Shown here in pieces: positions 17,683-31,053 of a stretch of DNA of 31,891 nucleotides. The stretch lies in the IMG/VR virus record IMGVR_UViG_3300025305_000078, positions 1 through 31,891 of that record; one strand, given 5' to 3'. Position 1 is the stretch's first letter; the number at the start of each line of letters is the position of its first letter. The notes beneath the pieces are model-generated. The model saw only the letters and a list, made by a program, of their open reading frames with translations, was not told the DNA's origin and searched no databases. The DNA comes from a virus. A program made the position numbers and the translations under genes.

Positions 17683-19136
17683 TATGGGGTCCCGCCCTCA
17701 ATGTTCCCGGCCGTGAACCCCCTAAGTATCTCAGCACCAACGTTTGCATCCCGAACCTTGGTGGCCGTCTGATCCTCCAGCATTCGGTCAATCTGTTCCT
17801 GGTCGTAGCCCATCTCCCGCCATAGCTGTTCCTGGGACACCCCCAGGGCGGCTTTCTTTTCCAACGACTCCAGGAACGCTACCTCGTTGCGGGTGTTGGG
17901 ATCATCCCAGCCTACTTCAAACCGCTCAGTGAGTTCTCCCACCGACTGGCCGAACGTTTCCTGGACTTTGAGGGCGAAGGCCATAACGTCCTCCCACCCA
18001 TTGCCGAACCGGACCTGTCGGTCCTTGGCCTTGGCTATCAACCCCGACTCCGCCGTTTTAAGGGCCTCCCCGGACGGCGCACCGCCCATTAGCTGGAATA
18101 GGTACTGGGGGGTCCGGGTAGTGCCAGCGATGTGCTGAACCAGGGCGTCCATAGTCTTGAGGGCCCCCTCCGGGCTGTCTGCCGGGATAGTGCCAACCTT
18201 GGAGGTCCCTCCCTCATCGTCGGACTTCATGCTCCAGAACGCGCCTGGAATCATATCAACCGCTGTTCTGTCCAGGTTCATGTCCACCACGTAGGCCCGA
18301 CCAAACCCGGCGTTGTCGTTAATCATCGCCAGGTCAATCAACGTCTTGTTGAGTAGATCCTGGATATGTATGGCGTTCCGTAGTTCGGACTGCCCGAAGT
18401 CTGACCCGGCTGGCTTGTTGCGGAAGTGGAAGATGTTGACGCCCATTGGCTGCCCGGCCTTGTCCAACCAGGGCTGGGGCCAGCCTTCCTCCCCTGGGTC
18501 CCGGTGTTTCTGCCAGACGGTATCCTTGGGCCCTACAGCGTACTTCTCTATCCGGTCTGGATAGTACAGGTTTAGACGGGTTAGCATGTCTTCCCCGATG
18601 GGACGCTCAACCCATTTTTTGCTTGCCATGTCGATGCGCCTGGTGGCCTCGTTGTAGTGGGGGATGATGGTCTCAGGAAGCTGGTGGGTTATGAATACCC
18701 GGCCTTCCTGGGGGTCCCAGTCCACCAGGACGTAAGAATCGCCCACCATGACCGACTCGGTGTGGACTATGCTATGGGTCTCATCCATGCGGTTGGCTTG
18801 CCAGGTATTCCAGGCCCACTCTGCCACGGGCTTAGAGTCCCCGTCCTCGTTGGTCCCGAAGGACGTAACCATAAGCCGCTCGGCCAAGGCGTCGACCACG
18901 ACCTCCATAAAGTTGTCCCGGAACTTCAAGTCCCCGCTGTTAAGACCGCTGTTGAGGAACTTTTTTAGCCGGTCGGTTAACTCGGTCGGGTGATCCCCGC
19001 CGTAATACCGGCGGAACAAAGCGTAGTCGGCCCGGCGCTCGGCCTCCATCTTCTGGAGCCAATCGTTAAGGGCCACCATGTTGGGGTCCCCAAAGGACAA
19101 CCCGTTGACGAATACCTCAACTGCTTGGAGTACCAT
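17682..19136 (-). CDS. Portal protein, SPP1 gp6-like
   Basis: A 484-residue protein with ATG 19136, GGGAGG nine bases upstream, overlapping the LuxR-type gene end by 20 bases. It begins with LNDWLQKMEAERRADYALFR and YYGGDHP; then comes FRDNFMEVVVDALAERLMVTSF, followed by strands VGDSYVLVDWDPQEGRVFI. The centre has NIFHFRNKPAGSDFGQSELR, then LLNKTLIDLAMINDNAG, and the channel-side region TPQYLFQLMGGAPSGEALK. These are typical marks of SPP1-type portal proteins, dodecameric rings at one capsid vertex through which DNA is packaged and ejected. Length is usual. Preceded by terminase and followed by head genes. Confidence 0.92.
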   Translation of the reverse strand: MVLQAVEVFVNGLSFGDPNMVALNDWLQKMEAERRADYALFRRYYGGDHPTELTDRLKKFLNSGLNSGDLKFRDNFMEVVVDALAERLMVTSFGTNEDGDSKPVAEWAWNTWQANRMDETHSIVHTESVMVGDSYVLVDWDPQEGRVFITHQLPETIIPHYNEATRRIDMASKKWVERPIGEDMLTRLNLYYPDRIEKYAVGPKDTVWQKHRDPGEEGWPQPWLDKAGQPMGVNIFHFRNKPAGSDFGQSELRNAIHIQDLLNKTLIDLAMINDNAGFGRAYVVDMNLDRTAVDMIPGAFWSMKSDDEGGTSKVGTIPADSPEGALKTMDALVQHIAGTTRTPQYLFQLMGGAPSGEALKTAESGLIAKAKDRQVRFGNGWEDVMAFALKVQETFGQSVGELTERFEVGWDDPNTRNEVAFLESLEKKAALGVSQEQLWREMGYDQEQIDRMLEDQTATKVRDANVGAEILRGFTAGNIEGGTP

Positions 19137-19365
19137 TGGGCGCTACCTCCCGGTGTTCCTCACTTAATCCCAGATGGATTAGAGTCGCCATCACCCTAGA
19201 GTGGGTGTCTGGCCTATTTGTTAACTCCAACTTGTGGAATATGAGATTGCAGTAGTTCTCTACTGCCCTGATGGATATTGTCAGCCGATCCGCTATAACC
19301 CGGTTGTTCGCGCCTGTAGCTACCTCGGCCAGTACCTCCGTTTCCCTAGGTGTTAACTGAATCAT
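19117..19365 (-). CDS. LuxR/GerE-type HTH protein (82 residues)
   Basis: ATG 19365 has GGGGAGG seven bases upstream and overlaps the previous stop (ATGA). The whole protein is a LuxR C-terminal DNA-binding domain: LTPRETEVLAEVATGANNR, VIADRLTISIRAVENYCNL, FHKLELTNR. The conserved Leu-Thr-x-Arg-Glu-x-Glu-Val-Leu opening and the helix with VEN are diagnostic. It lacks a sensor domain. Stand-alone GerE-like proteins can activate or repress promoters; in this phage it may control late genes or host genes. Its place between terminase and portal is uncommon. Confidence 0.8.
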   Translation of the reverse strand: MIQLTPRETEVLAEVATGANNRVIADRLTISIRAVENYCNLIFHKLELTNRPDTHSRVMATLIHLGLSEEHREVAPNGTPSS

Positions 19366-19586
19366 ACCGGTACCTCCCCGGTGATCCCAGGCCGCCAAGG
19401 GACGTGATAGATCACTGCCGTTAGTTCAAGCCGGAAGTCTCCGGTTAGTTGCTCCGGGTCGCTCTCAAGCGTTGGAACGTACCGGGCTAGATGCTGGGGG
19501 ACAAGCTCCCCGGTCTCTATCCGGTGGATGGTCTCATGGAGGATGCGAACGAGGTTATCCCTGGGGGACGGTGCCGGCTGGATCAT
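19362..19586 (-). CDS. Small 74-residue protein
   Basis: ATG 19586 overlaps the previous stop (ATGA), GAGAAAG lies upstream. The text is helical at the start (RDNLVRILHETIHRIETGEL) and strand-like later (DFRLELTAVIYHVPW). It ends GEVPV at TGA 19362, coupled to the LuxR-type gene. No domain recognised. The tight coupling suggests it is translated with the regulator. Confidence 0.6.
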   Translation of the reverse strand: MIQPAPSPRDNLVRILHETIHRIETGELVPQHLARYVPTLESDPEQLTGDFRLELTAVIYHVPWRPGITGEVPV

Positions 19587-19955: not shown

Positions 19956-21470
19956 TCACTCTGGAATAATCCCGGTGTCGGTGTCAACGTACCGCTCCGC
20001 AGTATGCCCCATGGCGTTGTTGGAGGCCGTCTGGGCGTACCGGTCCATACGGGTGCTTTTCTTGGCTGCGCCCACGTAGGCAAAGGTCATTGCCAAGGCG
20101 TCAGCCTCATCTGGGCTAGGGGCCCCGCGTTCCTTCATTTTTACCTTGCTTTCCAACCGGATCGTACTGTCTCGCTGTAGTTCATAGGTCCGGGTCGTTA
20201 TCTGTGATATTAGGGCGTCGTCGTTCTCTATGTCAAGAATATCAAACGCTTGCCTCATGCGCCACCATGCCTCTGCGATCCGGTTGAAGTACCGGGTAGG
20301 CCGGTGGGCCCTGGCCCCGCCAACAAAGGGTATCAACTTGACCCGGTTATTAAGGCCCCGTCGGGCGAACGTTTCTCTGCACATATCGAACACCCCGGCC
20401 CCCACCCCCACGGTGTCGATTACGACCGTCTCTATGAGGGGGTCTCCCTCGACCAGTTCCAGGACTTTACCGGCCAGATGGGTGGTAGGCCGTCCGTTGA
20501 TCTTGTAGACCTTCCTGGCGACTGCGCCCTGGCGGCGGTAGATCACCGAGTCATCTTCCCCGAACCGGGCCACGTCGACCCCCAGAACCGCCTCCGCCCC
20601 AGCCAGTTGCACCGTCCTCTGAACCGCTGCCTCCGCCTGGGCTAGGTTGATGATGGCATCCTCGGTATTGTCCGGGAACTCCCCTAGAACCCTGGCCTTG
20701 TATACCGGGCTGTTCTCCCCAAACCTGTCCTTCCATCCCTGGATGGACGCGATGGTCGCCAGACCGGGCACTACGATGCGGCCCTCGGTAACGTTAGGGC
20801 TATCGAAGGCCGAGACGGTTATGGGGTTGTAGAGTTCCCGAAACTGGTTAAAGGACCGGTAGAACTCCCCGGCGGTCGCCAGGGGGTTGCCGGTAAGGAT
20901 CAGCCGTTCTGGGCCTAGGCTTAGTAGCGCCTCAATCTCTGTGTCCTCGACAGCCTGGGCCTCAGTTACTATGACCAGCATGTGGGGGCTATGGAAGCCT
21001 TGAATACCCGACCCCGTCCCCCCAGCGTCGGCGCTAAAGCCCTGGGCGTACCTGGTGTCACTTATCTCGTACCGGGCTGCCCTGGGGTACATATAGCCGG
21101 GGAGGCCCCCTACGGCGCCCCTGTAGCCTTCCCTGGTGTTCCTCCAGATAATGTCGGACACCTGCCGGGACGTGGGCCCGTAGACGATGGTTATGGCCTC
21201 ATCGTGGACATATTGCCACCAGAGGACCAGCCGCCCGGTCGTAAAGTCCTTGCCGGTAGAATTAGCCCCCTTGACCGTGGTCTGAGTGTGGTTTTTGAGA
21301 GACCAGGCAATCTCAGCCTGTTTGTCGGTCAATAGACTGCATTGTAACTTGTACCGGAGGAACCATTCCGGGTCGTCCCAGGCATGGCGCCGGTCGTCGT
21401 ACTCCCCGCCCTCCAGATGGGCCACCCGTACCAGGCTGTCCCAGTTGACCGGATTAACTAACTGAGTCAA
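19956..21470 (-). CDS. terL: Terminase large subunit
   Basis: A 504-residue packaging motor protein starting at TTG 21470, with GGAG seven bases upstream. The ATPase half has Walker A at 68-74 (GANSTGK), Walker B at about 164-170 (MLVIVTE) and motif III LTGN at 192-195. The nuclease half has GVDVARFGEDDS with D299, VVIDTVGVGAG with D352, and SPDEADALAM with D454 and D457, the three acidic positions of the RNase-H-like fold. It translocates DNA into the prohead and cuts the concatemer. The Walker A ends GKD rather than GKS/T, a known terminase variation. It sits directly before the portal cluster; the small subunit is about 2.5 kb upstream. Confidence 0.95.
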   Translation of the reverse strand: MTQLVNPVNWDSLVRVAHLEGGEYDDRRHAWDDPEWFLRYKLQCSLLTDKQAEIAWSLKNHTQTTVKGANSTGKDFTTGRLVLWWQYVHDEAITIVYGPTSRQVSDIIWRNTREGYRGAVGGLPGYMYPRAARYEISDTRYAQGFSADAGGTGSGIQGFHSPHMLVIVTEAQAVEDTEIEALLSLGPERLILTGNPLATAGEFYRSFNQFRELYNPITVSAFDSPNVTEGRIVVPGLATIASIQGWKDRFGENSPVYKARVLGEFPDNTEDAIINLAQAEAAVQRTVQLAGAEAVLGVDVARFGEDDSVIYRRQGAVARKVYKINGRPTTHLAGKVLELVEGDPLIETVVIDTVGVGAGVFDMCRETFARRGLNNRVKLIPFVGGARAHRPTRYFNRIAEAWWRMRQAFDILDIENDDALISQITTRTYELQRDSTIRLESKVKMKERGAPSPDEADALAMTFAYVGAAKKSTRMDRYAQTASNNAMGHTAERYVDTDTGIIPE

Positions 21471-21650: not shown

Positions 21651-22442
21651 TTAGACATCGGGGAATTCCAGTTGACAGCTTTGACATAATGGCCCTGGAG
21701 GTTTCTTGGATTTAACGCCTCCTGGTCCCCAGGTGCATCGTTTTACCCCCATTGTGCGTAGCTCATCCTCCAAGGTCCGTATACGTTTTCCCACGTCAGG
21801 GAACCAAATCTCTAGCCACTCCAGTTCTTTATTTTTGGGATCAGCGAAAGCCCCGCACAGACATTCCCCGCTCATATGAAGTAGTTCAACCACTTGGTTT
21901 CTTGGTAATTTATGCTCTCGGCGATACTCCAGCAAGTCCTCATTGGTGAAATGGTGAATTGGTGCCACCCATACCGTGTTACCTTCTCGGCGCACTGGCT
22001 CTACATAGGCCATCCGTCTCCGTGATTCTGAGGTCCGCACCCCAGTAATAAAGAGCACACGCCGGTTTTGCCCAGCCTGTGCTTCTCGCCGTACGTCTCG
22101 TAACGGACGCTCTTTTAACCAACTATACATATACCGATGGGCACCAGGACCAGGGAAGCCATGTTCTCGGACCAAATCTTCATAGGTGCGTGGGCCGTAT
22201 TTCTCAATGAGGGGAGTGCCCAACCATTCGGCAAATTCTCTGGTAAAAATCCTAGGTTCTTCCACGCCGATTCCGGTATTGATATGCACAAAAGCATCGA
22301 TAGGCGGACCATAAGTTTTAGCCAAATGTGCAACAGTAGTCGAATCATTACCCCCAGACACAAGGACATAAGTTTTGATTGGATTGTAGTCTCTAACAGC
22401 CGCAGCTAATACCTCTACACTACGCTCAATGAGTTGATCCAT
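21651..22442 (-). CDS. PAPS reductase family PP-loop protein
   Basis: A 263-residue protein, ATG 22442 behind AGGAGG at six bases. The PP-loop is SGGNDS at 29-34, the ATP pyrophosphatase motif of CysH/DndC-type enzymes. FVHINTGIGVEE and TGVRTSESRRR (133-143) also match the family. The C-terminal region holds cysteines C194, C196, C236, C253 and C256 (GECLCGAF, PLCQSCQ), able to bind zinc or an iron-sulphur cluster. Classic CysH reduces PAPS to sulphite using a C-terminal ECG motif; here that motif is not evident. Phage and DndC-like members may act on sulphur transfer to nucleic acid, so modification is a possible role. It overlaps the zinc-finger/HTH gene upstream by 17 bases. Confidence 0.82.
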   Translation of the reverse strand: MDQLIERSVEVLAAAVRDYNPIKTYVLVSGGNDSTTVAHLAKTYGPPIDAFVHINTGIGVEEPRIFTREFAEWLGTPLIEKYGPRTYEDLVREHGFPGPGAHRYMYSWLKERPLRDVRREAQAGQNRRVLFITGVRTSESRRRMAYVEPVRREGNTVWVAPIHHFTNEDLLEYRREHKLPRNQVVELLHMSGECLCGAFADPKNKELEWLEIWFPDVGKRIRTLEDELRTMGVKRCTWGPGGVKSKKPPGPLCQSCQLEFPDV

Positions 22443-22740
22443 CCGTCGCCTCCTGTGCAAACCTGTCATAATCAAACGGGGCACAACGGCCATGCTCCAT
22501 ATCTGACAACTCTTTAGGATGGATACCCAGGCGTTTCGCTTCTTCACGTAGGCTCATATCTCGTAGCTGCCGGTCTTTAGACATGGCGATGCCTCGGATT
22601 TTCCAGTCGGCAGTTTCCGGTGTAATCACACCTGTCCCGTCACAGGTGTTGCACGTAATTTGTATCTGGCGAAAACCCGGACAACCATATCCAACAGTTT
22701 TCCCTGAACCGCCACAATCAGAACACGTCTTATCTATCAT
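22426..22740 (-). CDS. DnaJ-type zinc finger plus HTH protein
   Basis: A 104-residue protein with ATG 22740 behind AAAGGAG. C6/C9 (CSDCGGSG) and C30/C33 (CNTCDGTG) form two CxxCxGxG repeats as in DnaJ zinc centres, with GYGCPG between. The second half, DRQLRDMSLREEAKRLGIHP and KELSDMEHGRC, resembles an Xre-type helix-turn-helix, SLREEAKRLGI being the first helices. It resembles zinc-HTH antitoxin or regulator architectures. It overlaps the PP-loop gene start, so the two are probably made together. DNA target unknown. Confidence 0.75.
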   Translation of the reverse strand: MIDKTCSDCGGSGKTVGYGCPGFRQIQITCNTCDGTGVITPETADWKIRGIAMSKDRQLRDMSLREEAKRLGIHPKELSDMEHGRCAPFDYDRFAQEATDGSTH

Positions 22741-23840: not shown

Positions 23841-24028
23841 AAGAGTCTTGGCCTCCCCTCTAGTTGGGCTTCTACGTCAGCCCCTACTTCGGTTTCTAAG
23901 GCGCCACAAGGGCATTCCCAATGCATCGCTGGCGGTAAGGTGCCCCCGCCATCATCTGGTGCCTCAGTGGCCGTCTCAGTGCCAACCAGGGCCATATCCG
24001 AACAACACCGGGGGCATTTCTTAATCAA
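23837..24028 (-). CDS. Zinc-ribbon protein (63 residues)
   Basis: ATG 24028 overlaps the terminase small subunit stop by eight bases. KKCPRCCSDM at the N-terminus and WECPCGAL later give a compact four-cysteine site. An acidic linker (APDDGGG) lies between. The stop overlaps the next ATG. Typical small phage zinc ribbon; no specific role. Confidence 0.7.
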   Translation of the reverse strand: MIKKCPRCCSDMALVGTETATEAPDDGGGTLPPAMHWECPCGALETEVGADVEAQLEGRPRLL

Positions 24029-24518
24029 CGCTTGTTACTTCCCCTTCTACGATCCCCACCCCGGCCAGGGCCCGCATACGCTTGTCGACCTCTAGGATCA
24101 GCCCCCGCAGTTCCGGGTCCTTGCCGAGTTCGTTCACATCATACCCCACCTCGGCTACGAACAGAGGGGTTGCCGGGCTGCTACCGGGCGGGAGTTGAGT
24201 TGGAAACATTTGTAGGTACCGTCCAATGAGTTCCAGGGCCTTATTCACTGGCTGCCGATCCCGGTCTACCAGGCCGCCTATGACATTCTCTTTTAGCTTT
24301 TGTAGGACCCAGTCGGTGGACAGCCCGGCGTTTTGAGCCTGTTCAATGAGGTATTCAGCCAAGGCCGCTTTAACTTTAGCATTTTTAAGCAACCTACACC
24401 CTTGCATGGGGGCGCTCACTGGGGCGTACCCGGCAGCTAGGGCAGCCCTTGATGCGTTAAAGTCGATAGCGTACTCTTGGACAAACCTGGTTTGTCGGTC
24501 GTTGCAAGTTGTTTTCAT
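24021..24518 (-). CDS. terS: Terminase small subunit
   Basis: A 165-residue protein with ATG 24518 overlapping the previous stop (ATGA). The N-terminus matches the Terminase_2 family: NDRQTRFVQEYAIDFNASRA, AALAAGYAPV, and GCRLLKNAKVKAALAEYL. This DNA-binding helical domain recognises the packaging site. A central oligomerisation helix and KALELIGRYLQMFP follow, and the C-terminus ends GEVTSVD. It lies about 2.5 kb before terL, with six other genes between, which is not the usual adjacency. Confidence 0.88.
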   Translation of the reverse strand: MKTTCNDRQTRFVQEYAIDFNASRAALAAGYAPVSAPMQGCRLLKNAKVKAALAEYLIEQAQNAGLSTDWVLQKLKENVIGGLVDRDRQPVNKALELIGRYLQMFPTQLPPGSSPATPLFVAEVGYDVNELGKDPELRGLILEVDKRMRALAGVGIVEGEVTSVD

Positions 24519-24943
24519 TTTAGTCCCCTAAGCCGTTTTAAGGCCCCTCCAGACCGTTGGGTGGCGTTTCCCCACGCCGCACCCTCTATCAAGCCCCCTA
24601 TGGCCGCCTGAGTGCCACCAGGCCCCGTTCCGGCCCGAAGGATGATCCGCCAATTGGGGTTTATTACCCCCAGGCAGTTCTCCATATGCTCCAAGACCAT
24701 TGTCGGGCTATACTCGTTACAAGAAAACACGTCCATAAGGACCTGGCCGTCATGGACCAGTTTAATACAAATATGGGACTCCGCTACGATGGCCCAGCAT
24801 TCCCGGTACTTGGGCAGAGTGTACCAGGTCGGGCCGTTGATGATGGTCAGGCCCGCGTCCCTGACGATTGCCTTGATGCACAGTTCGACCATGCCTATAG
24901 ACCTCAGTTCCCGCTGCCGGTACCCGTCGATCAACATGTGCAT
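24515..24943 (-). CDS. S-adenosylmethionine decarboxylase-like protein
   Basis: ATG 24943 (MHMLIDGY) has AGGA six bases upstream; an ATG at 24958 would add five residues but has no ribosome site. The product matches SpeD-type AdoMet decarboxylase: HMLIDGY at the start, VAESHICIKL with the self-cleavage pair Glu-Ser (numbering from 24958: E60-S61), and MDVFSCNE with Cys80. In SpeD the Ser becomes the pyruvoyl cofactor and the Cys is the proton donor. The conserved His five residues after Ser is Lys66 here. The C-terminus adds a glycine-rich tail ending KRLRGLK. AdoMet decarboxylase feeds spermidine synthesis; the substitution raises the chance of altered substrate or loss of activity. Confidence 0.7.
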   Translation of the reverse strand: MHMLIDGYRQRELRSIGMVELCIKAIVRDAGLTIINGPTWYTLPKYRECWAIVAESHICIKLVHDGQVLMDVFSCNEYSPTMVLEHMENCLGVINPNWRIILRAGTGPGGTQAAIGGLIEGAAWGNATQRSGGALKRLRGLK

Positions 24944-24951
24944 CCCAGTTC

Positions 24952-25197
24952 CTACCATGGCGGATGGGCCGCAAATGGTTTCTTCCCTTCCCAGTAGTCA
25001 AGGAATTCGTTTGCCACGGCCTCAGAGGCGAAGTAGCTAACCCCCCAAGCCCAGCCCGGTCCACCGATTATCAGGGCTAGACGCTTCCTCTGCTGAACAT
25101 GACCGACCCAGATGCCGCCTGTATCCTGGGTGCCTTTCATTACGTAGATAAATCTGTTGAAATCCCGCGGGGGATCGCTGGTATTATCGGCTGTCAA
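24952..25197 (-). CDS. Hypothetical protein (81 residues)
   Basis: TTG 25197 follows GGAGG by nine bases and overlaps the end of the extended RusA frame. The text reads FNRFIYVMKGTQDTGGIWVG, QRKRLALIIGGPGWAWGVSY, and ends FAAHPPW with helix between. A beta-hairpin plus helix fold seems likely. No family recognised. It is coupled to the SpeD-like gene downstream. Confidence 0.6.
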   Translation of the reverse strand: MTADNTSDPPRDFNRFIYVMKGTQDTGGIWVGHVQQRKRLALIIGGPGWAWGVSYFASEAVANEFLDYWEGKKPFAAHPPW

Positions 25198-25633: not shown

Positions 25634-25923
25634 ACCGTCGCCTTACAGGTCATGCACAGAGTCACCCGCTCATCCCCGACCAGAACATCTAACGCCACGC
25701 TTTCATGGGAACAGGGCTGGGCCTGTTGTTCCCGAAACTGGGTAATATCTACGTCCCTGTTAAAATCCAGAATCGTGGTCAGTTCAGTATCAGCGTCCCG
25801 CATGGCCTTGATCGCGTCGTTGGTCCCGAAGCCCCGGAACACCTTTTCCCCGCGCCCGTCAAACTCATCTCTGGTGATGATCTTGACCTCTACCTCGATG
25901 CGGAGTCCCTGGTATTTAACCAT
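25630..25923 (-). CDS. Zinc-ribbon protein (97 residues)
   Basis: ATG 25923 (MVKYQGLRIEVEV) follows GGGAG by seven bases and overlaps the Gp37/68 stop by eight. After a strand-helix region (FRGFGTNDAIKAMRDADTEL) the C-terminus has PCSHES and LCMTCKATV, a C-x2-H ... C-x2-C zinc site. The longer frame to 25983 is a shadow. The stop overlaps the RusA ATG. Small C-terminal zinc ribbons like this occur in phage recombination-gene clusters. Confidence 0.65.
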   Translation of the reverse strand: MVKYQGLRIEVEVKIITRDEFDGRGEKVFRGFGTNDAIKAMRDADTELTTILDFNRDVDITQFREQQAQPCSHESVALDVLVGDERVTLCMTCKATV

Positions 25924-27358
25924 TGGGCATCTCCCGCCACTCGCGGCCGTCCAGCAAGGCGCCAGCGGCTTTCTTACCGACACGGGCCATCGCTAGCCGC
26001 TCAGTAATATACCCAGTGCCGGAACTGGTCTCATACGGCCTAGGAACACCGTCTATCTCCAGAATGGGGCGTAGTGCCCTTCCATACTCACTGCGGCTAT
26101 AGTCAAAATCTTCGTCAATAATGGCTGGCCGCCACTGCCCCCACTGCTTGAAGAAGAAGGGGACACCCGCCGCCTGGCATTGGTCCCTGGCCGACCGGAA
26201 CCAGTCGGGATGCGCGGGCCTCGCGCCGGGGCCGGATTCTCCGCCTCCAATCGTCCAGTGAATTAACGGCGCTGTCCCTTGGCTATCTTGGAGACGGTTT
26301 GGAAAGCGATGCCAAAATCCGAAGCTATCGAGGTAAGCCGTTCCCCTGCGCCACGTCGGGCACGTATCTCCGCAACTTGGGCATCGGTCAACTTCGCCAT
26401 GTGATTGTTCTGGCCGTTCTGATGCAGCACCCGGTCGTTGCCTAGGGCGTAAATCGAATGTGTCTGCTGCTCTGAAGGTGTCGCCAACTCCAGGTTCTCG
26501 GGCCGATTGTCGTCCTTGATCCCATTCCTGTGGTTCACCGTTAACTGCGTTGGTATCTGACCGAAGAAATGACGGTACACCAAACGGTGGGCCAGAGCGT
26601 TCGTTCTCTGATAGTTGGTCATCGAGCGTATCTGAAGGTATCCCGATGGTAGGCGATGCTCGGCCCGCCTCGGGGTCACTGGATGAAGCGTTGTAGTGCC
26701 TCTCCATTTGTCGCCCCCCTTCGTGAACACCCTCCAAATACACCCTTGCTGGTCTATCGTCAGTTCGCCACTGATAACCGCATTGTAGACAATATCTTCG
26801 GAGTTCTTCGACTTCACCATGGCTTGGATTATACCCGTAATAGCGGCGAACATCCACCGGCCCCAACGCTGGCTCATAACTCACAAACCGAACCTTGGCC
26901 GGGACACGGGCCAGCACGTCCAGGCGGGCGGCATACTTCTGGGACTCCACCGAGGTTCCGGCCCAGACGTTGGAGGGCCAGGCCGCCTCTGGCGACTTAC
27001 CCATGTGGTCGGGCCAGATAAAGTTTGCGAAATGAGCCATAAGGCCAGGTCTTTTAGTAAGAACCTGGAACGTATGCTGGGGCGCATCCCGCATAACTGC
27101 AAAGATTTGTATTGTGAAACCCCAGCCAACGTCCCTATGAAACAGGTCGCCCATTGAACAGACGAAGATTCTCCGCGAGTCCTTCCACTTACATGGCTGG
27201 TAGAGCCGGTCGACGTGTCGCGTTACCTCGGTAAAAGGGTGGCGCTTGAACCGGTCGGTGATCCTCTCGGCGTAGCAGTGGTCACACCCTGGGCTGACCT
27301 TAGTGCAGCCCGTGACCGGGTTCCAAGTTTCATCTGTCCATTCTATTCCAGTTGGCAT
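25916..27358 (-). CDS. Phage Gp37/Gp68 family protein (DUF5131) with large insertion
   Basis: ATG 27358 to TAA 25916, 480 codons. The N-terminal 170 residues match the family: WNPVTGCTKVSPGCDHCYAE with C18, C25 and C28 (a radical-SAM-like cysteine cluster), RRIFVCSMGDLFH, VLTKRPGLM, WAGTSVES and RFVSYEPALGPVDV. The C-terminus resumes at HWTIGGGESGPGARPAHPDW and FFFKQWGQW. Between residues about 172 and 363 lies text with low complexity and no family match. That segment coincides with an HNH endonuclease gene in the +1 frame. The frame stays open through it. Function of DUF5131 is not established. Whether the long form folds is doubtful; the insert could leave a disordered loop or inactivate the protein. 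Confidence 0.8.
   Translation of the reverse strand: MPTGIEWTDETWNPVTGCTKVSPGCDHCYAERITDRFKRHPFTEVTRHVDRLYQPCKWKDSRRIFVCSMGDLFHRDVGWGFTIQIFAVMRDAPQHTFQVLTKRPGLMAHFANFIWPDHMGKSPEAAWPSNVWAGTSVESQKYAARLDVLARVPAKVRFVSYEPALGPVDVRRYYGYNPSHGEVEELRRYCLQCGYQWRTDDRPARVYLEGVHEGGRQMERHYNASSSDPEAGRASPTIGIPSDTLDDQLSENERSGPPFGVPSFLRSDTNAVNGEPQEWDQGRQSAREPGVGDTFRAADTFDLRPRQRPGAASERPEQSHGEVDRCPSCGDTCPTWRRGTAYLDSFGFWHRFPNRLQDSQGTAPLIHWTIGGGESGPGARPAHPDWFRSARDQCQAAGVPFFFKQWGQWRPAIIDEDFDYSRSEYGRALRPILEIDGVPRPYETSSGTGYITERLAMARVGKKAAGALLDGREWREMPNG
26263..26820 (-). CDS. HNH homing endonuclease nested in Gp37/68 gene
   Basis: ATG 26820 encodes about 185 residues in the +1 frame relative to the surrounding gene. 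The core reads AHRLVYRHFFGQIP, LTVNHRNGIKDDNRPENLEL and ATPSEQQTHS, a textbook HNH_3 site with His in AHRLVY, Asn-His in VNH, and DNRPENL. The N-terminus has DQQGCIWRVF. The C-terminal TDAQVAEIRARRGAGE and IASDFGIAFQTVSKIAKG is a helix-turn-helix as in homing endonucleases. Its TAA lies exactly where the Gp37/68 protein resumes (PLIHW). There is no strong ribosome site. It is a selfish gene, likely inserted; no group I intron features are evident. Confidence 0.85.
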   Translation of the reverse strand: MVKSKNSEDIVYNAVISGELTIDQQGCIWRVFTKGGDKWRGTTTLHPVTPRRAEHRLPSGYLQIRSMTNYQRTNALAHRLVYRHFFGQIPTQLTVNHRNGIKDDNRPENLELATPSEQQTHSIYALGNDRVLHQNGQNNHMAKLTDAQVAEIRARRGAGERLTSIASDFGIAFQTVSKIAKGQRR

Positions 27359-28181: not shown

Positions 28182-28901
28182 TCATCCCCTCCGGGCTGCC
28201 CTTTCAGCCGCATCCTGTCGGTGTTTCGCCACCGGGTCGACTTCCCTGGTTGGACTAGCCCCGTTCAACGGTGGGCGCTGTACCCACGTCCTAAAGGTCG
28301 CCCACACGTCCGTCCACTTTGGTCTACCCTTGGGTCCTTGACCGGGCCATTGGCTCCGAAGGGACGCCGCTGTTTGATTGGCGTGGGCTTCGGATATCCC
28401 TTTACCGTCAAGCCAAGTCTGGCACTCGGCATACTTTAACTCAAACCCCTCGATTGAATAAAGGTCGACGTACCAGTCCGGTAAGCCCGAACGGTCTAAT
28501 AATTGCTGTATCCCCTCAGAAGGACCTGGAGATTCTATTGATGATTCTTTTCCCTTAATGCAACCTGACATGGGTGTCACGTTGCTAGTGCCAGTGGTGT
28601 CACGTTGCAAGATTGTCATGTTACAGAATTGACAGTCATCGTTGATATGAATCTGATATGAGTTTGATCGGCGTCCCGCCTGAGTCGCCCGGCGCATTCG
28701 GCACAGCGCCCCTAGCTTCTCCAATTCAGCGATCTGCCGCCAGACCGTCCGTTCTGATACTTTACACTTGTCGGCTAGGCCCTCAACCCCCGGCCAGCAG
28801 AAACCAGTTTTGTCAGCGTGGTCCGCCACCGCCAATAATACCAGTTTGGCCCCTGCTGGCAAGTCTTGGGACCAGACCCAAGTTGAAGCTTCGTGGCTCA
28901 T
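28182..28901 (-). CDS. Winged-helix replication initiator-like protein
   Basis: A 239-residue protein with ATG 28901 overlapping the previous stop (ATGA). Residues about 1-80 form an HTH_36-type winged helix: DLPAGAKLVLLAVADHADK, GVEGLADKCKVSERTVWRQI, ELEKLGALCRM. The C-terminal part contains a helical block (WYVDLYSIEGFELKYAE, ISEAHANQTAASLRSQW) and a basic end. Such proteins open origins together with DnaC-like loaders (lambda O/DnaD-like). The origin is not located; it may lie within this gene, as in lambda, but I see no iteron array. Confidence 0.75.
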   Translation of the reverse strand: MSHEASTWVWSQDLPAGAKLVLLAVADHADKTGFCWPGVEGLADKCKVSERTVWRQIAELEKLGALCRMRRATQAGRRSNSYQIHINDDCQFCNMTILQRDTTGTSNVTPMSGCIKGKESSIESPGPSEGIQQLLDRSGLPDWYVDLYSIEGFELKYAECQTWLDGKGISEAHANQTAASLRSQWPGQGPKGRPKWTDVWATFRTWVQRPPLNGASPTREVDPVAKHRQDAAERAARRG

Positions 28902-31018
28902 ATCGAAAGGTCCATGACGGTCTGGGTCCGTTGGGCCAAAGCCCGGCCAAGGTTTCGTTGGGCAACAATGAAATACTCTGGCTTTAATTCTATTCCAATG
29001 AACTTCCGTTCCTGTTGCAGGGCAACGTAACCCTCAGAGCCGATGCCCGCGAAGGGACTCAATACCGTGTCCCCTGGGTTCGACCATAGACGAATGCATC
29101 GTTCAATAACTTCTAGTTGCAACGGAGCGATGTGCTTCTCGTCTTTTTCTGACCGGCCCTCGGCGGCATTGAGCGTGTTGCTTTCTCTCAGGCCATACCA
29201 GACCGGATGCGCCCATTGAATCCAATCCTCATTGGAAATGTCCGGCTGAATCGGATGCAATGAGAGCCCCGGCTTCCGAAAGACAAGAATATAATCTGCC
29301 AGCCCAGGCCGTAGCCACGACGCATCTTTCTTGAGTTGTTTGAACAACAGCCCTTTGCTGTGGGTTCGGATGGCCTGAGCTTGAGGATTCTTGTCTACAG
29401 TAACATCACCATGATAGTCGAACCCGGCCTCTTGCATCAGTGCGATGATTAGACCCCGGAAATCCTTTAGCCCTATGAATCCATCGTAGGCTAATTTGGT
29501 GGGCACCTGGGCAACGTGAACAGCCACCAGTCGGCCTAGTTTAGTTATTCGCAACAGTCCAGCGGCAATGGGTCGGTACATGGCTGCAAATCCATCTTCG
29601 TCGCGGCTGTTGCCCAAGTCCCTGGGATCAGCAGAATAGCTAAATAGGTCTAGGAATGGCGGGGAGAATACTGTGAAATCTACCGACGCTTCAGTCAGTT
29701 GTAGCAGTGTCTCGGCTGAATCACCGTGGATTAAACGGTAATCGTCGGTTTCGATGGGCTCTTGAAAGGCATAGCCTCTATCTGCAACAGTATGCCCCTC
29801 CAGTGCCATCTTGTCGTAATCAGCAACTCTGCCCGCCATCGCCTGAACGGTTGCTTGATGCTCTTGCTCTTTGTGCTGTACGTTCTCCAATACAATCCTC
29901 TCTATATCTGATGTTAGGATCACCACATTGACCGGCGACTCTTGGCCGAACCGCCAACATCGCCGGATAGCTTGATAATATTGCTCATAGCTGTCTGAGA
30001 TACCTAGGAACATCATGTTATGACAGTGCTGTAGATTCAATCCGTATCCACCGATGCGAACCTTGGTAATCAACGTCTGAACACTCTTATCAAAAAACCG
30101 ACCAATATCCCGTATCTTGCTTTCCAGGGAGTCTGCGCCCTCGACGTTGACGCTATCGACCAGTTGCTTTTGGAGCAGCCGCCCCTCGTCGTTTAACCCG
30201 CACCAGACAACCCATTGCTCATCGGATTTGCCGATGATCTCCGCCGCCCGGTTGACTCGTTCCTCTGTTGTCATTCTTCGGGCCACCAACCGCCCCTCGA
30301 CGCCAGCCATGCCGGTCACGAACAACCGCCCGGTGCAATTCGCGTAGGTTGTCTGGTCTACGTCCACGAAGATAGGCTCAACGTTCAGCGGCGGCAGATC
30401 ATACCCGTTGCTTGGGAATCCCAGTTGGTCCGGCGTGGTGAACATCATGCACCATGTAGAAAGCCATTCATAAAACGCCTCGACTGCGTGGCCTTTCAAT
30501 TCCCAATCACCATCACGGTTCACAAAGAAGGTCCCAAGCATCTCCCCACGGGCCATCAGGCTTAGGAATTCGGCATGGTTGCCCAGTTCTGTAACGTCAT
30601 TAGGTGCGGGAGTTGCTGTGCAACAAAGCCGGTATTGCATATCCTGGTATTTTTGAATCAGTTTGGTGCGGGTCTTACCGTCCCATGATTTCAAAATGGA
30701 CGATTCGTCTAGTACGATAGCGTCAATGGCCTCCGCGGGGAAATGGTCTACCATTTCGTAGTTGGTTACGTACAACCCCGGCCCATCCATATCCTCGGCG
30801 GTTCGTATATAGCTACAGGTCAGCCCAAATTTGCGGGCCTCATAGCGGGTCTGTTGGGCCACTGCCAGCGGCGCAACCACAAGCCCCCGGCCACCGATGC
30901 ACCGGAGCCATTCAAGTTGCATGATAGTCTTACCAAGACCACAGTCCGCGAAGATAGCGCATCGCTCCCGCCCTACAGCCCAATGGACGATTGCCTCTTG
31001 GAAGTCAAATAAATGCAT
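28898..31018 (-). CDS. SNF2-type helicase fused to DNA methyltransferase
   Basis: ATG 31018 (MHLFDFQEAI) has GAGG six bases upstream; an ATG at 31030 lacks a site. About 706 residues. Numbering from 31030: Walker A CGLGKT at 30-35, DES box at 108-110, TATP at 138-141, and motif VI QAIRRCWRFGQ at 353-363, i.e. an SNF2/RapA-like SF2 helicase. From residue 430 follows a methyltransferase of the beta class: SPPF catalytic motif at 456-459, then FAGIGSEG (AdoMet site) at 660-667 near the C-terminus. The SPPF motif suggests N4-cytosine or N6-adenine methylation. Such fusions occur in phages and could protect DNA while tracking along it. Preceded by a promoter and leader. Confidence 0.9.
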   Translation of the reverse strand: MHLFDFQEAIVHWAVGRERCAIFADCGLGKTIMQLEWLRCIGGRGLVVAPLAVAQQTRYEARKFGLTCSYIRTAEDMDGPGLYVTNYEMVDHFPAEAIDAIVLDESSILKSWDGKTRTKLIQKYQDMQYRLCCTATPAPNDVTELGNHAEFLSLMARGEMLGTFFVNRDGDWELKGHAVEAFYEWLSTWCMMFTTPDQLGFPSNGYDLPPLNVEPIFVDVDQTTYANCTGRLFVTGMAGVEGRLVARRMTTEERVNRAAEIIGKSDEQWVVWCGLNDEGRLLQKQLVDSVNVEGADSLESKIRDIGRFFDKSVQTLITKVRIGGYGLNLQHCHNMMFLGISDSYEQYYQAIRRCWRFGQESPVNVVILTSDIERIVLENVQHKEQEHQATVQAMAGRVADYDKMALEGHTVADRGYAFQEPIETDDYRLIHGDSAETLLQLTEASVDFTVFSPPFLDLFSYSADPRDLGNSRDEDGFAAMYRPIAAGLLRITKLGRLVAVHVAQVPTKLAYDGFIGLKDFRGLIIALMQEAGFDYHGDVTVDKNPQAQAIRTHSKGLLFKQLKKDASWLRPGLADYILVFRKPGLSLHPIQPDISNEDWIQWAHPVWYGLRESNTLNAAEGRSEKDEKHIAPLQLEVIERCIRLWSNPGDTVLSPFAGIGSEGYVALQQERKFIGIELKPEYFIVAQRNLGRALAQRTQTVMDLSI

Positions 31019-31053
31019 CCCTTCCCTCATAAATAAAAGCCGCCTGTGGACGA

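Follow-up and report, generated by a model that had tools for sequence, protein, structure and literature searches.

Genes for PAPS-reductase-like proteins have been described in phages and archaeal viruses (PMC11437467, PMC8092301, PMC10848311, PMC12418951), and they were compared with DndC in one of these reports (PMC8092301) and assigned to a 'viral CysH branch' in another (PMC10848311). Viral genes annotated as 'cysH' or PAPS reductase are often counted as auxiliary genes of sulphate assimilation. Among the other described systems, complex formation has been reported for SspA-SspD (PMC7188994), and an argument built on the lack of a catalytic cysteine is made for CasCysH in section 7 of PMC8175902. 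One family of such viral genes, PHROG 424 ('phosphoadenosine phosphosulfate reductase'), is already named and annotated and is uncharacterised; we found no tested function for it, and no paper stating the cysteine pattern of the viral clade was found in the literature search. A member of this family, encoded on the minus strand of a viral record 31,891 bases long (referred to as the window), was analysed here and compared with CysH, DndC and SspD.

A PP-loop protein of the PAPS-reductase fold

The PP-loop gene is located at 21651..22442 (minus) and encodes a putative protein of 263 amino acid residues, which falls in the virus- and plasmid-borne clade of PHROG 424. The longest open frame covers 21651-22547 (298 aa); the ATG at 22442, and not the start at 22547, is the likely start of the gene, because a candidate Shine-Dalgarno sequence, AGGAGG (22449..22454, minus), lies six bases upstream of it. 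The protein scored 44.8 bits with the Pfam family PAPS_reduct (PF01507; cut-off 22.5) and matched PHROG 424 with E=1.3e-34 over residues 23-265 of the 298-aa frame. With PADLOC, only weak matches to BrxP, SspD and QueC were obtained (16.8-19.7 bits).

The AlphaFold2 model of the protein, based on an alignment of 81 sequences, had a mean pLDDT of 91 and a pTM of 0.89. When the model was compared with known structures (Foldseek, VIA-align), the top matches were PAPS/APS reductases with Z 15-17, the best being the E. coli PAPS reductase 1sur (Z 17.1, 183 residues, 2.7 Å). ATP sulphurylase was also matched (Z 15.8), followed at lower scores by FAD synthase, TilS and TtuA/NcsA (Z 13-15), and NAD and GMP synthases are likewise close in fold. 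A PAPS-reductase fold is thereby predicted, and the PP-loop motif fits ATP binding. Across the 81 relatives, 16 alignment columns are invariant, far beyond chance.

The cysteine map of the family

The main result is the cysteine map: as read from the aligned sequences, the family is without the catalytic cysteine of CysH and has its own set of four cysteines, arranged as a CxC pair and a terminal CxxC. Three rows (L102, L112 and L090) were left out of the family alignment for truncation or frame. The PP-loop motif SGGNDS occupies residues 29-34 (22341..22358, minus), with S29, G30, G31 and S34 present in 81/81 rows and D33 in 80/81; H102, K110, E139, R143, C194, C196 and E206 are also unchanged across the 81 rows. 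Five cysteines, C194, C196, C236, C253 and C256, were mapped in the C-terminal part of the window protein, in agreement with the earlier note on this DNA, which had described a PAPS-reductase-like protein with SGGNDS and a C-terminal cysteine cluster. C194 and C196 form a C-L-C pair (residues 194-196; 21855..21863, minus) within SGECLCG, and both are found in all 81 rows; the surrounding pattern SG[ED]C[LF]C is kept in 80/81. The terminal CxxC (residues 253-256; 21675..21686, minus) has each of its cysteines in 79/81 rows, and the middle pair followed by a further CxxC was observed in 77/81, the window protein included. Cysteines of this kind carry [4Fe-4S] clusters in APS reductase and TtuA.

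The segment from H102 to K110 (22113..22139, minus) aligns with the cysteine segment of CysH, DndC and SspD (CC..RK or WCT..LK). In the family this segment reads H..MY..LK, with H102 and K110 in 81/81 rows and a cysteine at position 105 in none of them. The cysteine before the conserved lysine is absent in 81/81, whereas CC..RK was found in 7/7 CysH references and C[TS]..[LM]K in 9/9 DndC and 8/8 SspD references. Similarly, the ECG[LI]H tail occurred in 0/81 family rows as against 7/7 CysH references, which had been picked by that motif. The terminal CxxC was seen in 8/8 SspD, 0/9 DndC and 0/7 CysH references.

Relation of the family to CysH, DndC, SspD and CasCysH

Presence of the ECG[LI]H motif in high-scoring PF01507 matches served to select the CysH references, and the SspD (8) and DndC (9) references were chosen from genomes by their profile matches alone; three CysD sequences (L124, L125, L144), one DndC (L169) and L175, which has an internal stop, were left out. 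The family shares the fold (Z 15-17) and the G.RR.ES and P..WT motifs with CysH, but it is without the ECG[LI]H tail and the CC..RK segment, and its PP-loop reads SGGNDS. The NCBIfam cut-offs for CysH were not reached by the window protein (PRK02090, 30.5 bits of 154; TIGR00434, 19.1 of 165.1), and the scores with the other NCBIfam models likewise fell well short of their thresholds. Judged by these sequence marks, the family is not assimilatory CysH, and the view of the earlier note that the protein does not serve assimilation is borne out by the missing tail, by profile scores far under the cut-offs and by trees that place the family outside CysH.

With DndC, the fold, the PP-loop and the aligned motifs GFPxP / GYPxP and K..R..ES are in common, but WCT..LK, GCW.CT and the long C-terminal part are missing from the family. 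All nine DndC references had the WCT..[LM]K cysteine and the GCW.CT pair, while C[TSY]..[LM]K was found in 0/81 family rows, and the DndC profile TIGR03183 gave no match to the window protein at E up to 1. The family, which forms a clade of its own, is by these marks not DndC, and the label 'DndC-type' used in the earlier note is not supported.

SspD and the family have in common the PP-loop, a cysteine motif in the same place (SGC-x-x-C in SspD, SGECLC in the family), the E..L..P..LE..W segment and the C-terminal CxxC. They differ in that the RWCT..LK cysteine, present in 8/8 SspD references, occurs in 0/81 family rows, in that the middle pair is CxC in the family and CxxC in SspD, and in that no ssp neighbours were seen. 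The PADLOC SspD profile matched the window protein weakly (19.7 bits, E 1.4e-4), as against 299-461 bits for the eight SspD references. The profile alignment ended at residue 244 for SspD, through the C-terminal region, at 207 for CysH and at 177 for DndC; when the C-terminal module alone was aligned with SspD, the match was not significant (hhalign E 0.038). As for the CasCysH protein of type IV-B CRISPR-Cas, the description in the cited section of PMC8175902 agrees with the family in the SGGxDS PP-motif and in the lack of a catalytic cysteine. Around family loci, 13 regions in phages and 4 in plasmids were viewed, and none of them had csf1-csf3 genes annotated.

In the tree of 57 rows, from which long branches had been removed, the family was recovered as a clade with support 100/98 and was joined to DndC+SspD with support 97/85, whereas in the larger tree (79 rows) it was joined to CysH/CysD. 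None of the placements was rejected by AU tests (family+CysH, p 0.27; family+SspD, 0.40; family+DndC, 0.30). Since the join is unstable between data sets, no nearest relative is claimed for the family. Phylogenetic placement against CysH and DndC had been proposed in the earlier note: the clear grouping with CysH that would have spoken against its inference of sulphur modification was not seen, and neither was a clear grouping with DndC.

Gene neighbourhood of the PP-loop gene

The PP-loop gene shares 17 bases with the end of a gene for a small protein of 104 aa (22426..22740, minus), and the two sit between the terminase small subunit (TerS; 24021..24518, minus; Pfam Terminase_2, 3.8e-19) and the terminase large subunit (TerL; 19956..21470, minus; PHROG 2, 3.2e-30), so that the overlap in the packaging region reported in the earlier note was found again. 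In the order of transcription, a helicase-methylase fusion, a replication initiator, a DnaC-like loader, a DUF5131 protein, RusA-like and AdoMet-decarboxylase-like proteins and TerS are followed by small genes, the 104-aa protein, the PP-loop protein, a small gene, TerL and the portal. Both further genes named in the earlier note, a methyltransferase fusion and a Gp37/68 protein, are real according to Pfam. The fusion joins an SNF2/DEAD helicase to an N6/N4 methylase (28898-31030) and lies ~6.5 kb from the PP-loop gene; the Gp37/68 protein (DUF5131, 480 aa; 25916-27358, minus) has a cysteine cluster, CTKVSPGCDHC, near its start. The product of 24515-24958 (minus, 147 aa) matched PHROG 3125, S-adenosylmethionine decarboxylase, with 2.6e-5 and contains an AESH...DVFSC stretch, which we take to be typical of that enzyme. 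A small LuxR-like HTH frame, recognised from its translation, was noted between TerL and the portal (19117-19398, minus).

In the 104-aa protein, two motifs of the CxxCxGxG type are accompanied by an HTH-like stretch, as the earlier description of a DnaJ-zinc plus HTH gene implied, but both Pfam matches are under the curated cut-offs (DnaJ_CXXCXGXG, 26.3 of 32.7; HTH_3, 18.4 of 23). Its proposed role as a partner of the PP-loop protein was rejected: it stands beside the family in 4/118 loci, all of them copies of the same virus, and it had no match in 50,697 phage records. It is regarded as a neighbour, not a conserved partner. In LittleTokyo the PP-loop gene is immediately preceded by an HTH gene, but the zinc/HTH-like protein of the window has no match in that locus.

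Among the relatives, the genes that recur beside the PP-loop gene encode C5 methylases, primase, DnaB-like helicase, SSB, PD-(D/E)XK nuclease, integrase and WhiB. In 7/13 phage and virus regions viewed, the annotation includes a DNA methylase or methyltransferase, and a methyltransferase was present in the flanks of 25/96 locus groups, within 2 kb in 19 of the 25. A methylase as specific partner was nevertheless rejected, given that DnaG-like (7/8) and DnaB-like (9/10) genes cluster as close to the PP-loop gene; the link is therefore only to a DNA-metabolism module. DUF5131 was found near the family in three loci besides copies of this virus: in Nonomuraea (L095) its gene immediately precedes the PP-loop gene, and in L094 and L121 it lies close by. 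As in the window, the PP-loop gene stands next to terminase genes in HRTV-29, directly before terS-terL, and in ReqiPine5, where it adjoins terL.

No cysteine desulfurase (Aminotran_5) was found in the record, which may be a fragment, and no Dnd or Ssp partner, sspA/B/C included, was found with PADLOC among the 27 window proteins scanned from this possibly incomplete record. No other cysteine-pathway gene was recognised among the window proteins scanned, and the record contains no tRNA genes.

Distribution and hosts

Phages and archaeal viruses contributed 30 records with relatives at 26-47% identity; others occurred in 9 plasmid records, in 161 IMG/VR stretches (80 kept) and, in the genomes of bacteria and archaea, at 33 loci. 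In total, 118 loci with a PP-loop match were reduced to 89 groups at 85% identity. The carriers are mycobacterial, Rhodococcus, Streptomyces, Arthrobacter and Rhizobium phages, haloarchaeal, Acidianus and Sulfolobales viruses, plasmids and chromosomal contigs. The nearest relative is encoded on another IMG/VR contig (L015, 64% identical), and a truncated PP-loop piece, also at 64%, was found in a Chloroflexota MAG (L102). In the phage nearest by its terminase (L199; TerL, 69%), the RusA-TerL-portal order is kept, and a PP-loop gene is present neither at that site nor in the rest of the record (30,981 bases). Because this nearest terminase relative is without it, the gene is accessory and not part of packaging. 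A frame after the RusA gene of the same phage (L199:999-1820) carries a GCNLKCPWC motif, presumably radical-SAM-like.

Two long open frames contain the PP-loop domain. One, of 867 aa (L081), has no second Pfam domain; in the other, of 739 aa (L101:5857-8076), it is combined with DUF3631, either as a fusion or as two genes without a stop between them. The Girr protein (L008:5830-6744) has a second SGG-type stretch, FSGGIGSW, ahead of the true PP-loop, perhaps a partial duplication.

CysH with the ECG[LI]H tail was encoded by the host in 7/10 genomes carrying the family, so a second assimilatory copy would not be needed there. In a haloarchaeon (G007), a MAG (G010) and a Chloroflexota MAG (G005), no strong CysH or CysD match was obtained with PF01507.

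Possible function and alternative explanations

Our preferred reading, held tentatively and at somewhat less than an even chance, is that the protein, an accessory gene product from a clade carried by viruses and plasmids, acts on its own as a PP-loop ATP-pyrophosphatase and modifies nucleic acid, perhaps viral DNA and perhaps with sulphur. From the fold and the motif, ATP would be split to AMP and pyrophosphate with adenylylation of an oxygen of the target, and this activated oxygen would sit on nucleic acid. The four cysteines could provide the ligands of a sulphur-delivering metal or Fe-S site, or could shape the acceptor site; sulphur borne by a cysteine or a cluster would then attack the activated target, its source being, we suppose, the cysteine desulfurase of the host. 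The target would most likely be nucleic acid, and the virus's own DNA would be likelier than tRNA, a preference drawn from context alone, since in very different viruses the gene is surrounded by genes for replication, methylation and packaging. The benefit might be that viral DNA is hidden from host nucleases; the earlier note had suggested sulphur modification of DNA or tRNA, perhaps for antirestriction. The fuller proposal of a one-protein viral enzyme, common to phages and archaeal viruses, that marks viral DNA with sulphur or another adenylate-activated group by means of its own cysteine set and without a Dnd/Ssp complex, is rather unlikely to be correct in all its parts.

Thiolation or another modification of tRNA in the manner of TtuA/NcsA, aiding late translation, is unlikely: the fold matches include [4Fe-4S]-containing structures of TtuA and NcsA (Z about 13) and weak profile matches to TtuA were obtained, but PAPS reductases score above them (Z 15-17), no tRNA gene lies in the record, and the RNA methyltransferases near two relatives make no pattern. 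The absence of the sulphonucleotide catalytic cysteine, together with the nearness in fold to FAD, NAD and GMP synthases, would also suit an ATP-alpha-hydrolase whose adenylylation target is a small molecule, a nucleotide or a protein. No sulphur would then be involved, a defence signal of the host might be spoiled in this way, and the cysteines would bind zinc for folding only. A like proposal has been made for CasCysH of type IV-B CRISPR (PMC8175902). The invariant CxC and the terminal CxxC common to SspD point instead to redox or sulphur chemistry, and the neighbourhood is one of replication and packaging, which leaves this explanation fairly improbable.

The usual annotation, under which the gene would be an auxiliary metabolic gene for an assimilatory PAPS/APS reductase, draws on the PF01507 score, the fold, the annotation of relatives, the joining of the family to CysH/CysD in the larger tree and the labels given in PMC12418951. 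Against it, ECG[LI]H and CC..RK are each found in 0/81 rows, the CysH cut-offs are missed, the hosts mostly have CysH already and the scanned window proteins offer no companion from the cysteine pathway, and we consider it very unlikely. We give just as little credence to genuine phosphorothioation, in which the viral protein would borrow the SspD/DndC subunit of an Ssp/Dnd system of the host or take its place. The terminal CxxC and the collinear alignment in common with SspD, the tree that joins the family to DndC+SspD and the DndC link made for M. abscessus prophages (PMC8092301) speak for it, but the WCT..LK cysteine is absent in 81/81 rows, and Dnd is patchy, with DndC above the cut-off in 1/198 and 10/299 genomes, so that a viral subunit would rarely meet a host complex.

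Significance for viral PAPS-reductase-like genes

The PP-loop gene of the window is real, well conserved, widespread and of a known but unsolved kind. Several members of the family are carried by cultured phages, such as gp68 of Girr and gp02 of ReqiPine5, and one, gp58, by the cultured archaeal virus HFTV1. Since the catalytic cysteine on which the PAPS-reductase label rests is absent in 81/81 members, counts of such genes as auxiliary genes of sulphate assimilation may be wrong for this clade.
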